Assembly: GCA_013297655.1 (NCBI GenBank)
Contig: JAAFHV010000073.1
Coordinates: forward strand, 1 to 35,339
Direction: 5' to 3'
From: Myxococcales bacterium
GTDB lineage: Bacteria; Myxococcota_A; Polyangia; Polyangiales; Polyangiaceae
DNA: 35,339 nucleotides
Shown: positions 28,595 through 35,339 of the stretch, piece by piece
Layout: every line of letters begins with the position of its first letter
How positions within the stretch are numbered: position 1 is the first letter of the stretch
Translations under genes and position numbers: made by a program
The notes under the pieces: model-generated
The model's input: only the letters and a program-made list of their open reading frames with translations
What the model was told of the DNA's origin: nothing
Databases searched by the model: none

Positions 28595-29103
28595 CGGTCT
28601 TGCCCTTCCAGCTCTTTTGCCTTGTCGCCCACGGCCTCGTCGACGTCGCGACGAACGATCGCCTTCACGCGCTTCGACACCTTCGACAAGATCCTCAAGA
28701 GCTCCCGCATCTCGTCCTTCGTGAGGCTCGAGAGCGCGCTCTGGAACACCTTCATCGGCTCGATCGGGATGTCCTCCGCGAGCTGGCTCCCCTTCGCGGT
28801 GAGCTTGATGATGACGACGCGGCGGTCCGCCGTAGACCGCTCGCGCACCACGAGCCCCTCGCGCTCCATCCGATCGATGATGCCGGTGACGGTGCTGTTC
28901 TGGGCGCGGATCTTCTCCGACAGCTCCGAGAGCGACAGGTCGCCGATTTGCTCCAAGATTTTCACGACGGTGAGCTGCGGCCCGGTGAGCTGCGCGCGAC
29001 GGGCGAGCTCCTTCGTGATGCGGCGGCTCTCCGTATAGAGGTAGATGATCGTCTCCAGGATCTGCTGGACGTCGTCTTTGATGCTCGGCTCGAGCTTCTG
29101 CAC
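28591..29103 (-). CDS. MarR-family transcriptional regulator
   Basis: A 170-residue winged-helix regulator. The MarR core runs from about residue 40 (LTGPQLTVVKILEQIGDLSLSELSEKIRAQNSTVTGIIDRMEREGLVVRERSTADRRVVIIKLTAKG), with the helix-turn-helix and the DRR wing. Dimerisation helices flank it. It starts with GTG at 29103, with no good ribosome-binding site; no better start is in frame. It heads the marR-BKACE-crotonase operon, and a perfect palindrome lies 39 to 54 bases upstream of its start. It probably represses its own operon and is released by a pathway-related ligand, as is common for MarR regulators. Confidence 0.9.
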   Translation of the reverse strand: MQKLEPSIKDDVQQILETIIYLYTESRRITKELARRAQLTGPQLTVVKILEQIGDLSLSELSEKIRAQNSTVTGIIDRMEREGLVVRERSTADRRVVIIKLTAKGSQLAEDIPIEPMKVFQSALSSLTKDEMRELLRILSKVSKRVKAIVRRDVDEAVGDKAKELEGQDR

Positions 29104-29141
29104 GAAGGGCTCGTTTCGGAAATGGGGCTCTCCCCAAAATT

Positions 29142-29157
29142 GTTTCGTGTACGAAAC
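29142..29157. promoter_or_regulatory. Palindromic MarR operator
   Basis: The 16-bp sequence GTTTCGT-gt-ACGAAAC is a perfect inverted repeat with a two-base centre. It sits 39 to 54 bases upstream of the marR start and 80 bases before the divergent GNAT start, in the 133-bp divergent gap. A half-site CGTTTCG at 29112-29118 may be a second contact. Size, position and symmetry fit MarR-type autoregulation; it may also affect the GNAT gene. Confidence 0.65.
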
Positions 29158-29236
29158 TTTTACTCACGAATGGCTTCCCGTCAACGGCCATCGCCGCGCA
29201 CGAGGCGCCGATCGTGCCCTACTCTGTCTCCACGCC

Positions 29237-29773
29237 ATGACGATCCTCTTCACGAAACGCCTCGAGCTCGTGCCCGTCACGTTCGATCTCGTCGAGGCCG
29301 TGCTCTCCGAGCGGCGCGACGACGTGAGGCGGATCGTCGGCGCCGAGCTCCCCGACGCGTGGCCCGGTCGCGCCCTCGTCGAGCGCGCGTTCAGCGCGTC
29401 GATCGAGGCGATCCAAAAGGACCCCGAGCACCGCCTCTGGGGCGACCGCCTCCTCCTCACGCGCAAAGAGGACGGACCGCAGCGCCTCGTCGGGAGCGTG
29501 GTGTTCCACGGCTCGCCGCGCGACGGCGGCATGGTGGAGGTCGGCTACGGAGTGGAGGAGTCTTCCCAAGGCCAGGGCTACGCCACCGAAGCCACCATCG
29601 CGCAGGTCGATTGGGCGCTCGCGCAGCCCGGCGTGCGTCGCATCGAAGCGACCACCCCGCCGTGGCACTCGGCCTCGGTGCGGGTCCTCGAGAAAGCAGG
29701 GTTCGTGAGGGTCGGTCTCGACGATCACCCGTTCCTCGGCGAGATCCTCCGCTTCGGCCGCGATCGCGCCTGA
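29237..29773 (+). CDS. GNAT-family N-acetyltransferase
   Basis: A 178-residue GCN5-related acetyltransferase of the RimJ/RimL type. The acetyl-CoA binding motif is SSQGQGYATEAT (Q/RxxGxG/A), preceded by the strand MVEVGYGVEE. The C-terminal motif with ASVRVLEKAGFVRVG is typical of the family. The N-terminus FTKRLELVPVT fits RimJ/L proteins. Substrate (a protein N-terminus, an amino acid or an antibiotic) is not evident. The ATG at 29237 is chosen because the longer upstream frame is antisense to marR and non-conserved. It is transcribed divergently from marR, and the operator at 29142-29157 lies between them. Confidence 0.88.
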   Translation: MTILFTKRLELVPVTFDLVEAVLSERRDDVRRIVGAELPDAWPGRALVERAFSASIEAIQKDPEHRLWGDRLLLTRKEDGPQRLVGSVVFHGSPRDGGMVEVGYGVEESSQGQGYATEATIAQVDWALAQPGVRRIEATTPPWHSASVRVLEKAGFVRVGLDDHPFLGEILRFGRDRA

Positions 29774-29904: not shown

Positions 29905-30111
29905 CTAGAGCACCAAACCGCTCGATGACCGAGGATTTTGGCCGAGCTGCGCGCCGTGCGAGACGCGACGACGCTCCTTGGAAGTCCCTGACGAGGGACG
30001 AGTCCGACGACTGCGAACCGAGGAGGAGCAACGAAGCCGACCCTTGGAGGTCCCCGACGAGGGCGACGCAAATCGGCGAAGCCAACCGAATCGAGCGGGT
30101 TGGTGCTCTAG
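29905..30111. mobile_element. MITE-like element with 22-bp terminal inverted repeats
   Basis: A 207-bp segment whose ends (29905-29926 and 30090-30111) are inverted repeats of 22 bp with one mismatch. The outermost bases read CTAG at both ends. If the TA is the duplicated target, the element proper is 29908-30108, flanked by TA at 29906-29907 and 30109-30110, as for elements mobilised by IS630/Tc1-type transposases. Inside are two imperfect 21-bp direct copies starting CTTGGA (29977-29997 and 30043-30063, 19 of 21 identical), each followed by a CGAAGCC(G/A)ACC block (30032-30042 and 30077-30087). No transposase is present, so it would be non-autonomous. It fills most of the convergent gap between the GNAT and ferritin-like genes, and its right end supplies the ferritin stop codon. 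Confidence 0.6.
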
Positions 30112-30878
30112 GCCGCTACGCGACGCTCGTGGCGCTTCTCCCACGCGTCGCCCGCGCGGAGACCGAGCCGATCGAGGCCGGGCACGATCGCCTGCGCGAC
30201 GGTGTCGTAGAAGAGCCCGCGCGCCTCGCGACCGGAGCACAAGCCGAGCGCGGCGCCGCCTTCGCAGAGCACCGCGCCGAGAGGGAGGTGCGCGAGCTCG
30301 TGGCGCTCGAACGCGACGGGCAAGTAGGCCTCGAGATCGGCTCTTTCCTCGGTCGACATGCGCTCGAGGATCGTGGGGAGGAGGCGCCACCCGAAGCGCG
30401 CGTGACCGACCTCGTCGGCCCAGATGCGCGTGAGCAACGTGTGGAGGGTCCCCGGTGCCATGTCGTCGCGCTCTTGGCCGATGAGCGCGACGGCGACCGT
30501 CTCGGCCATGCACGCGATCGAGACCACGTTCCGCGCGAGCGCGCAGAGCGGCGTGGTGTCTTCGTGATCCGGAAACGCGTCTGCGGCGGGGACATCGGCG
30601 ACCGCGCGTCCGCCCGCAGCGACGACGACGGCGCCGCACATGATCCCGTGGCGTCGCTCTTCTTCTGCGAACGCGAGGCACTCGTCGTGGAGGTCGGCGC
30701 CGAGGCTCGCGCGCTCGATCTGCGCCGCGAGACCCTCGAATACGCGCGCCGAGCCGTGCTCGTTCACCATTCGGCCGAGCCACGTGAGGACCGTTCGGTC
30801 GCGAAGCGGTTCTGGAACGACGACGTCGAGAGTCGACGCGATCTGCGCCGATTCGAGGTGGAGATCGAGGACGCTCAC
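30108..30878 (-). CDS. Ferritin-like diiron-fold protein
   Basis: A 256-residue helical protein. Two ExxH motifs (Glu74-x-x-His77 in EERRH, Glu156-x-x-His159 in DEVGH), plus Glu40 and Glu126 placed between them, form the set expected for a four-helix-bundle diiron site, as in ferritin-like, rubrerythrin and AurF-type proteins. It lacks a signal peptide, so it is probably cytoplasmic. The GTG start at 30878-30876 overlaps the TGA of the upstream lipoprotein gene (30877-30875) as GTGA. The TAG stop (30110-30108) lies in the right terminal repeat of the MITE-like element. Iron storage, oxygen-dependent oxidation or sensing are all possible. The pairing with a Cys-rich lipoprotein is unusual and may be functional. 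Confidence 0.78.
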   Translation of the reverse strand: MSVLDLHLESAQIASTLDVVVPEPLRDRTVLTWLGRMVNEHGSARVFEGLAAQIERASLGADLHDECLAFAEEERRHGIMCGAVVVAAGGRAVADVPAADAFPDHEDTTPLCALARNVVSIACMAETVAVALIGQERDDMAPGTLHTLLTRIWADEVGHARFGWRLLPTILERMSTEERADLEAYLPVAFERHELAHLPLGAVLCEGGAALGLCSGREARGLFYDTVAQAIVPGLDRLGLRAGDAWEKRHERRVAA

Positions 30879-31363
30879 GCCAGCCCCCGGTGCGCCCGCG
30901 GCCGCCCGGCGAACGCGGGCGGAACCGGCGGGCCCCAAGGGGTGCAGTGGCGCCCGTTCGACTCCACGTCTACCCCGCAGCAGCCTACGTCGCGAAACTT
31001 CTCGATCTTGTTCGGCTCGCTCGACGCCTCGATCGCGTCGCAGCACGCGACGAGCCCAGGGTCCTTGCTGAGCGGACGCGGCGGGTTCCAAAATTCGGCC
31101 CCCGCGTCGTCGCCGAAGGCAGCGCGGAGCTTGGCTTTGCAACCATCGAGCGAGGTCGGCGAGGGTGGCGCGCCGGGCGATCCGCACGCGATCGCGCCAC
31201 TGGAGGACGGGGCCCCAGTCCCGAGCGTCACGTCTTGCGGCGCTGCTTCGCCTTCGCGCCCCGGCTCGCGGGTCACCGATCCCCCGCAGCCCGAGACGAA
31301 GAGCGCACCGAGCGCGACGCGCACCGCCGCGGACAAAGCACGGCTTCCACCATCGTTCGACAT
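30875..31363 (-). CDS. Small Cys-rich lipoprotein coupled to a ferritin-like gene
   Basis: A 162-residue protein with a lipoprotein signal (ALGALFVSGC, lipidated Cys26). After a disordered Gly/Ser/Pro-rich part it has a compact domain with cysteine residues: DGCKAKLRAAFGDDAG, VACCDAIEA, DVGCCGVD and RHCTPWGPPVPPAF. The two adjacent Cys pairs and the CTPWGPPVPP end look like a conserved small module. I do not recognise a named family. The start is supported by GGAGGAGG five to six bases before the ATG at 31363. The GTGA overlap with the ferritin-like gene shows translational coupling, and the pair may form an envelope-to-cytoplasm redox or iron-related unit (inference). It is divergent from a LysR gene. 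Confidence 0.75.
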   Translation of the reverse strand: MSNDGGSRALSAAVRVALGALFVSGCGGSVTREPGREGEAAPQDVTLGTGAPSSSGAIACGSPGAPPSPTSLDGCKAKLRAAFGDDAGAEFWNPPRPLSKDPGLVACCDAIEASSEPNKIEKFRDVGCCGVDVESNGRHCTPWGPPVPPAFAGRPRAHRGLA

Positions 31364-33517: not shown

Positions 33518-34990
33518 GTGATACGCGAGCGCGTCTGGAAGACCGTGGCCGAAGAGCTTCGCCACAAGTTCGGCACCTTGCTCGACGTACGCGACGTACG
33601 CCGCGTCCGGCGCGTGGCCGGCGACGCATGGGCGGTCTCGGTGGTGCTCGCCACGAGCGGGGGTGACATCCACGTCGCCGATCTGGTCGTCGACGACGCG
33701 GGCGCGATCGCCCCGACCCTCGGCGCCGATCACCTCGTCGACGCCGTGAAGCGCTCGCTCGTCGTCGTGTCCCCTCCGCCATCGATCGACGAGCTCGCCG
33801 ACTTCGGCATCACGGTCGGCGACGAGGACGCGCCGCCGTCGTCGCTCGGGCTCGATCGTTTGCTCGAGGCGCAGGTCGTGGAGCAACCGATCGCCGAGCG
33901 CGCGCAGGTTGCGCTTTCGAAGGGGGATCGCAAGTCGCTCTTCGAGGCGCGCGAGCTGCTCCCGAAGCTCCTCGGCGATCACGAGCGACGCGGCGTGACG
34001 CTGCTCACGATGGCCGAGGTCGAGTCGAAGCTCGGGGAGCCTTCGCTCTCGCGTGGTTATCTCGAGGCCGCGTCGCGTGAGTTCGCGGACCGCTTCGATC
34101 TCGACGCCCTCGAAAAGGCGGCCGCGGTCGCGCTCCAGCTCTACGGGCGCGAGGGCTACGCCGCCTCGCCTATCTACACGCTGCTCGAGCAGAGCCGGGC
34201 GCGCCTCAAGCCGATCGGCGATTTGTTCGATTCGCGAAGCTTCGCGTGGCTACCGGAGCCGATGCGCTCGCGGCTCTTGCCACACGTGCGCACCCGCACC
34301 CTCGCGCCCGGCGAGACGCTCGTCGCGGAGGGCGCACCATCCGAGAACGTGTTCGTAGTGAAGAGCGGGCTCCTCGGGGTGTGGCTAGAGAAGCCCGAGG
34401 GCGGCTCGTGGCTCGTGCGCTGTTGTTTCCCCGGCTGGCTGCTCGGCGAGTCGAGCGTCCTCGGCGGCCCCGAGCCGCGCTGCACGGCGACATTGAAGGC
34501 GGAGCGCGTGAGCGAGGTCTTCGTGTGCTCTGCGAAGGTGGTCCGCGAGCTCATGGAGGAGGATCTCGCGTTCGGGCAGCGGATCGCGGAGACGAAGCAG
34601 ATCCACCGCATCGACTCGTTTTTCTCGATGCACGAGACGATGGGCCAGCTCGACGTACGCGTACGCGACGACATTCTCTCGTGTCTCCAGCGCCTCGAGA
34701 CCTTCGAGAGCGACACGCTCCTTCTCCCCGCGAACGAGGTTCCGACGGTGGCGTGCTTGGTCGCGAGGGGCACGATAGGTCTCTTCGCGGACGGCAACGA
34801 GGTGCCGATCGGCGTCGTCGAGGCCGACTCGTTTTATGGGGTGAGGGACGCGATTCATGCGATCGCCCCGAGCTACGCTGCCATCGCGAGAGCGGGCACG
34901 ACGGTCGCGTTTTTCGAGGGAAAGAAGCTGCAAAAGCTCTGCGAGCGCAGCCCCGAGCAGGTTATCGCCGTCCTAGAACGCCTAGGCTGA
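33518..34990 (+). CDS. Protein with two cyclic-nucleotide-binding-like domains
   Basis: A 490-residue protein starting with GTG. The N-terminal 230 residues are alpha/beta and helical, without a recognised domain, and look like a regulatory or TPR-like part. Residues about 240-365 are a cyclic-nucleotide-binding fold: GETLVAEGAPSENVFVVKSGLLGVW, then the phosphate-binding cassette region LLGESSVLGGPEPRCTATLKAE, where Gly-Glu and Arg fit the PBC motif. Residues about 375-485 form a second, more degenerate copy (LLLPANEVPTVACLVARGTIGLFADGNEVPIGVVEADSFYGV) with no clear PBC. No DNA-binding helix-turn-helix is visible at the C-terminus, so it is not an ordinary CRP. It may be a cAMP- or cGMP-controlled scaffold. 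It ends 29 bp inside a possible opposing open frame. Confidence 0.75.
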   Translation: MIRERVWKTVAEELRHKFGTLLDVRDVRRVRRVAGDAWAVSVVLATSGGDIHVADLVVDDAGAIAPTLGADHLVDAVKRSLVVVSPPPSIDELADFGITVGDEDAPPSSLGLDRLLEAQVVEQPIAERAQVALSKGDRKSLFEARELLPKLLGDHERRGVTLLTMAEVESKLGEPSLSRGYLEAASREFADRFDLDALEKAAAVALQLYGREGYAASPIYTLLEQSRARLKPIGDLFDSRSFAWLPEPMRSRLLPHVRTRTLAPGETLVAEGAPSENVFVVKSGLLGVWLEKPEGGSWLVRCCFPGWLLGESSVLGGPEPRCTATLKAERVSEVFVCSAKVVRELMEEDLAFGQRIAETKQIHRIDSFFSMHETMGQLDVRVRDDILSCLQRLETFESDTLLLPANEVPTVACLVARGTIGLFADGNEVPIGVVEADSFYGVRDAIHAIAPSYAAIARAGTTVAFFEGKKLQKLCERSPEQVIAVLERLG

Positions 34991-35339
34991 AAGGCGGGGC
35001 GCTTTTCGCCGATAGCGGCGCCCTGGCGGCGTCGGGCGTGCTCAGCAACAGGAGTTGCTTCCGCGCGACCCTCCTTGCCAGGGCTTGCTCTCGACGAAAA
35101 TCGCCCCACCTTTCGTCTCGGTTGGGGAGGCGCGGGCGCTCCGCTTCCGCGGGAGACGCGGGGCGCTTCGCTTCCGCGGGAGACGCGGGGCGCTCCGCTT
35201 CCGCGGGAGACGCGGGACGCTCCGCTTCCGCGGGAGACGCGGGGCGCTCCGCTTCCGCGGGAGACGCGGGACGCTCCGCTTCCGCGGGAGACGCGGGGCG
35301 CTCCGCTTCCGCGGGAGACGCGGGACGCTCCGCTTCCGC
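34962..35339 (-). CDS. Possible repeat-containing coding frame (3' part, runs off window)
   Basis: From the window end leftwards the minus strand stays open for 126 codons to a TAA at 34964-34962. It reads a nine-residue repeat of the pattern PASPAEAER, then a non-repetitive tail (RLPNRDERWGDFRREQALARR...). Base differences between copies are synonymous in this frame (CGC/CGT) except one Glu-to-Lys. That is what coding selection would give, but the same holds for a plus-strand frame (RSASAGDAG). The end overlaps the 3' end of the cyclic-nucleotide-binding gene by 29 bp. It may be the C-terminus of a gene on the next contig part, or chance in a GC-rich repeat. Confidence 0.3.
   Translation of the reverse strand, partial: AEAERPASPAEAERPASPAEAERPASPAEAERPASPAEAERPASPAEAERPASPAEAKRPASPAEAERPRLPNRDERWGDFRREQALARRVARKQLLLLSTPDAARAPLSAKSAPPFSLGVLGRR
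35134..35339. repeat. 27-bp tandem repeat array reaching the window end
   Basis: About 7.5 copies of a 27-bp unit, with copies starting near 35137, 35164, 35191, 35218 and every 27 bases after. From the third copy on, one position alternates G and A, giving a 54-bp higher-order period; the second copy has a C-to-T change. Each unit contains a CCGC/GCGG self-pairing core. 27 is a multiple of three, so a frame can stay open. No spacers exist, so this is not CRISPR. The stretch 34991-35133 before it holds no gene I can support apart from the possible opposing frame. Confidence 0.85.

Follow-up and report, generated by a model that had tools for sequence, protein, structure and literature searches.

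MITEs are usually viewed as deletion remnants that are defined by their ends only. The SDRs of cyanobacteria, which Elhai reportedly described in 2008, are said to be very small mobile repeated elements. The prokaryotic MITEs ERIC, Correia/NEMIS and RUP have been reviewed (PMC10969869, PMC2229807). CGTC-tagged REP repeats are palindromes of 20-40 bp with CGTC at one end and a 4-nt loop, for which no dedicated transposase is known (PMC3733652). For IS630, a preference for CTAG/TA targets is indicated by the title of Tenzen and Ohtsubo (1991), as cited in PMC2170065.

In the window, that is, the whole stretch of 35,339 nucleotides that was analysed, a mobile palindromic element was delimited between two convergent genes (Table 1). 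As claimed from the letters alone, the element has 22-nt inverted ends (29905-29926 and 30090-30111, 95% complementary) with TA inside CTAG at both edges, and no transposase ORF was present inside it in the ORF list. The right end also supplies the TAG stop of the ferritin-like gene, as had been stated, the minus-strand ORF ending at 30108 in the right CTAG; its match to DUF455 was sub-threshold only. The window copy was among the most diverged of its family, with 87% identity to the family consensus, and had no plasmid match.

Table 1. Positions in the window of the element, its parts and the neighbouring genes
Feature	Position	Strand	Evidence
Left TA, target duplication copy	29906..29907	.	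sequence, inside CTAG 29905-29908; CTA/TAG flanks of most copies; single CTAG in nested-insertion paralogue
Whole element: 154-bp unit plus two cassettes, 201 bp without TA copies	29908..30108	+	inverted ends, TIR pattern, copy catalogue
Left terminal inverted repeat GAGCACCAAACCGCTCGAT	29908..29926	+	
Right terminal inverted repeat, reverse complement GAGCACCAACCCGCTCGAT	30090..30108	-	
Right TA, inside CTAG 30108-30111; contributes to the minus-strand gene's TAG stop	30109..30110	.	
Core 5' strand: outer-stem strand plus GAGACGCGACGACG (putative G.A ladder)	29950..29973	+	
Cassette copy 1 in the core 5' strand; 27-bp form with net insertion 29970-29996	29970..30000	+	
Core apical segment	30001..30019	+	
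Core 3' strand GAGGAGGAGCAACGAAGC	30020..30037	+	
Cassette copy 2, degenerate 27-bp form, second insertion site	30038..30068	+	
Ferritin-like gene, downstream part; TAG stop in right CTAG	30108..30908	-	weak DUF455 match
GNAT acetyltransferase gene, convergent, end about 130 bp before the element	29045..29773	+	

The TIR pattern was found 58 times in the host genome compared with 0 times for a reversed-pattern control; therefore, the element is not a chance structure. This genome, from a soil bacterium of the Polyangiaceae, comprises 9.9 Mb in 546 contigs and is fragmented, with several copies of the element at contig ends. The catalogue comprised 62 copies, and 47 of these were complete, with both ends present. 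From a basic unit of 154 bp, the length of the copies grew by 27 or 34 bp per cassette. Three copies were identical across the 154 bp with unrelated flanks, and CTA/TAG flanks were detected for 25 copies among those with both ends.

One copy (L089) was nested at CTAG in another hairpin repeat, two paralogues of which (L056 and L081) were uninterrupted and carried a single CTAG. This comparison is an empty-site test inside one genome, and shows that the element family is mobile, since the site is unoccupied in the paralogues and has one CTAG only. A 2-bp and a 4-bp duplication are inseparable at this site, because both CTAG and TA are palindromic. The sequence-only reading had proposed a mobile MITE and had named a single copy without empty sites as the opposite outcome; what was found were many copies with TA/CTAG edges, identical copies at unrelated sites, and empty sites in the nested paralogues and, for a sister family, in a related Sorangium strain. 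With its terminal inverted repeats, target-site duplication, lack of a transposase gene, multiple copies and mobility, the element has the properties by which MITEs are recognised, and its assignment as a MITE-like, protein-free, non-autonomous mobile palindrome is supported.

The second dispersed hairpin repeat, the family that the nested copy had entered, also has a copy in the window (34984-35125, minus strand), and further copies at L056, L060, L061, L071 and L081. Short tandem repeats with a unit like CGCTCCGCTTCCGCGGGAGACGCGGGG occupy 35130-35339, up to the end of the window.

In 15 of 55 elements, an edge also served as a coding frame's TAG stop, compared with 10 of 123 CTAG sites used as controls (Fisher p 0.0017); these counts are approximate, as coding was called from composition. 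Part of this enrichment may reflect survival and not targeting. When a gene stop lay at the edge, the genes entered the left end in nine copies and the right end in six, a small sample in which no strand preference relative to the genes was detected. This speaks against the element working as part of a 3' UTR with a fixed orientation, and weakens the earlier idea of a shared 3' structure for the two genes. A fixed local RNA structure, or a bidirectional terminator, for the two convergent genes would agree with the position of the element, with the stop codon that it supplies and with the strong folding of both strands, which fold better than shuffled sequences (z -8.3 for the plus strand and -5.8 for the minus strand). 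However, the multiple copies, the nested insertion with empty paralogues, the identical copies elsewhere and the lack of a T-run after the stem make such an origin extremely unlikely. An effect of the mobile element on its two neighbour genes is possible.

The internal 21-bp direct copies noticed by the sequence-only reading are real (29980-30000 and 30046-30066, with two mismatches in the first 18 positions), but their description was incomplete, as they belong to a separate hairpin cassette. A search with the cassette pattern AAGTCCCTGACGAGGGACG, allowing up to 2 mismatches, revealed 140 copies in the host genome compared with 0 for the reversed control. Within the MITE, the cassette is an insertion of 27 or 34 bp that may or may not occupy each of three fixed ACG sites, and at one site its orientation is inverted (3 complete copies); at least one cassette was carried by 25 of the 47 complete copies. 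Outside the MITE, other palindromic repeats contained the cassette as well. It was also detected near tRNA-like sequence, where it formed head-to-tail arrays, and within coding genes, where it was apparently in frame. Cassettes of 27 or 34 bp in MITEs and coding genes represent a second, smaller layer of mobility.

In four coding genes (L062, L049, L077 and L084), the in-frame cassette comprised nine codons, reading DPWKSLTRD on one strand, and in L062 it was present twice in tandem inside an apparent Rhs-like gene. Four tandem 27-bp cassettes were located at L065:294-393, by an apparent tRNA gene cluster. Two further palindromic families of the same genome, one formed by L074, L076, L079 and L080 and the other by L059, L078 and L083, had ends CTAGAGCGCCGATCAGG in one case and CTAGCAGGCTGCTGAA in the other, and both carried the cassette at ACG sites.

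Kinship with IS630 had been proposed for the element, with an IS630/Tc1-type transposase of the same ends moving it at TA in CTAG. This fits the IS630 preference as it appears in the title cited in PMC2170065, and the only IS630-type element of the host (L107:799-2296) was located at CTAG too. However, no full IS630 copy with the same ends was found in the host genome, where the single DDE_3 gene had unrelated ends (GTACCTCGACACAG) and an in-frame stop. No DDE_3 gene was present in G028, the genome with the closest sister elements, or in G004, and the DDE_3 genes of G020, G033 and G046 lacked a matching pair of ends. Considering also that the Sorangium sister family described below pairs with an IS5-type element, an IS630 origin is quite improbable.

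The host genome had no match to DDE_Tnp_1 (PF01609) or DUF4096 (PF13340), nor to the Y1 transposase (PF01797); a RAYT-mobilised GTAG REP was dropped as a candidate in view of the latter result. In view of the fragmentation and of the several copies at contig ends, the transposase could be missing from the assembly.

In Sorangium cellulosum So ceGT47 (G171), which belongs to the same family as the host, the TIR of a sister element (GAGCGCCGAACAAAACC) matched that of an 889-bp IS5-type element (GAGCGCCTAACAAAACC). This IS contained DUF4096 and DDE_Tnp_1 reading frames, its copies were flanked by TTA/TTA, and six DUF4096 matches were detected in the genome. Matched TNA flanks were present in 8 of 10 copies of the sister element; the 3-bp TNA duplication replaced a 4-bp one considered before, once the termini had been defined by the IS and the ten copies compared. 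One locus of the sister family aligned without gaps over 317 bp (94%) to a Sorangium genome that lacks the element, revealing an empty site. In two strains, a second locus also continued across the junction without interruption, although the bases at the junction differed and the alignment was less clean. An IS5-type transposase acting in trans is, therefore, the best-supported mechanism for the Sorangium sister family, and by analogy we infer an IS5-type mover for the family of the window. The length of the target differed, being TA in the host family and TNA in the Sorangium sister; TNA and TA targets belong to IS5 subgroups (IS1031, IS427). Regular repeats resembling a CRISPR array were present beside the IS5-type element of So ceGT47 (L350:2100-3180).

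When homologues in related genomes were compared, an interior of nearly fixed length was kept, whereas the ends and arms differed. This interior core is the new point of the analysis, beyond what the sequence-only reading had described. Its layout is a stem strand, RAGGCGCGACGACGA, a hairpin of 17-19 nt, GAGGAGGAGCAACGNAG and the second stem strand. The 80 nt were modelled as a variable outer stem, a tandem G.A ladder between single C-G pairs and a variable apical hairpin, the conserved strands being read as C-G pairs with three tandem G.A/A.G steps between them, which is a reading of facing bases and not a computed structure. In G004, one step of the ladder was UU/AA instead of GA/AG.

In a set of 23 sequences, the covariation score was 0.298 compared with 0.109 after shuffling, and 79.5% of the cells were paired compared with 67.0%; none of 500 shuffles was as high in either assay, and slid registers gave worse results. 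The RNAalifold consensus recovered only part of the proposed structure. Per-pair counts are understated, as the apical stem pairs in two registers. In 57 non-redundant matches picked by their loops, the mean energy of arm pairing was -46.6 kcal/mol for own partners compared with -29.2 for swapped ones, 33 of the 57 preferred their own partner over all others, and the apical segment folded at -5.7 compared with -1.9. Because these loci were chosen by core sequence, conservation of the core among them is built in, and independent evidence comes from the arms and the apical segment. Selection on the core is well supported. Complementarity of palindrome arms from templated correction of DNA quasipalindromes can explain part of the covariation without RNA, although such correction would tend to remove, not keep, G.A mismatches. 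The element has also multiplied in copies whose core carries a cassette in the 5' strand, and an intact core can therefore not be an absolute requirement: a hairpin at this place is tolerated, or else some moves do without the core.

The distribution of the core was followed with a covariance model, by which 51 of the 183 genomes of the order had the core, frequently in many copies, and with a pattern of the loop residues only, which matched at least 113 stretches from many phyla, compared with fewer than one expected by chance according to our own arithmetic. Among the matches listed were Gemmatimonadota, Acidobacteriota, Bdellovibrio, Burkholderiales, Elusimicrobia, Omnitrophica, Planctomycetota and Eisenbacteria; many of these genomes are metagenome-assembled, and individual names could reflect mis-binning, which would however not account for so wide a range of phyla. 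Many loci had a palindrome of about 160 bp with CTAG at the ends, whereas those of Burkholderiales, Elusimicrobia and others had shorter palindromes without CTAG, and the TIRs differed between genomes with the same core. The viral contigs, phages, plasmids and E. coli genomes searched lacked the core. When a resident protein partner was sought, the ORFs near the 113 listed core loci shared no cluster above 5 loci. The window had no match at gathering to the Rfam 15 covariance models, and nine homologue loci assayed at E up to 1 gave two chance-level matches only, far below their gathering scores. A text search for the core sequence returned no relevant paper within the open-access literature. 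The core is a candidate RNA motif absent from Rfam, its novelty being judged on Rfam 15 and the open-access literature.

An old, horizontally spread MITE with a merely inherited, functionless core would account for the patchy distribution, the high copy number and the lack of an associated protein. Such an origin is improbable, as the loop residues were retained and pairing stayed intact despite wide divergence of the TIRs, apical stems and arms. Recurrence of one interior structure with different ends in many phyla suggests that something selects for the core. This could be a function of its own as a structured RNA (regulatory RNA, ribozyme or protein-binding RNA), with the transposon-ended palindromes as vehicles. 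The exact loop sequence and G.A ladder kept over phyla while the stems change, the UU/AA step of G004 and the different TIRs around the same core point in this direction, whereas the lack of orientation bias relative to neighbouring genes and the spread of cassette-interrupted core copies make it rather doubtful, even though it is compatible with the explanation preferred below. We tentatively propose that the core may be an undescribed, widespread structured RNA or single-stranded DNA element that was repeatedly packaged with different transposon ends and has its own function in the life cycle of selfish elements.

The preferred explanation, which we consider likely, is that of a protein-free MITE of 154 bp with cassettes of 27 or 34 bp, moved in trans by a DDE transposase and with its core under selection. 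The transposase would cut at GAGC...GCTC, duplicate TA and prefer CTAG. Judging from the Sorangium sister, it was probably IS5-type, and has since been lost from the host genome or was not assembled; an IS5-type parent of the host family would be expected to have GAGCACCGAAC ends. As CTAG is palindromic, insertion there would leave the TAG stop in place, which is proposed as the reason why many copies lie exactly at gene ends. Selection would maintain the 80-nt core as a structure folded from RNA or single-stranded DNA, and the core may be part of what the element needs for persistence or multiplication, through binding of the transposase or a host factor, or through protection of the hairpin. 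Through this core, the idea that a structured nucleic acid can be the lasting part of a selfish element can be put to the test.

Compared with known mobile elements, the Sorangium sister shares its ends and TNA target with IS5-family elements (DUF4096 plus DDE_Tnp_1, as in the 889-bp example of So ceGT47), whereas the MITE has no transposase and only the ends in common. The cassette is similar to the SDRs of cyanobacteria in its size of 21-27 bp and its apparent mobility within other repeats. With CGTC-tagged REP repeats (PMC3733652) it shares the short palindrome that ends in a CGTC tag, seen on its reverse strand (CGTCCCTCGTCAGGGACTTCCAAGGGT), as well as the size of this palindrome, the 4-nt loop, the presence within coding genes and the lack of a known transposase dedicated to it. 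However, its stem is of 6 bp (GTCCCT/AGGGAC) and includes part of the tag, whereas REP stems are of 8-9 bp after the tag; it forms head-to-tail tandem arrays (C274 and C201), whereas REP are mostly head-to-head dimers, and, unlike REP, it sits at ACG sites within MITEs. The element itself is, like ERIC, Correia/NEMIS and RUP, small and protein-free, with inverted ends, a short target duplication, many copies and a stable hairpin, often at the 3' ends of genes. In a BLAST search, E. coli genomes had no match to the core. Unlike these prokaryotic MITEs, the family of the window has an internal structured core that is common to genera and phyla with unrelated ends.
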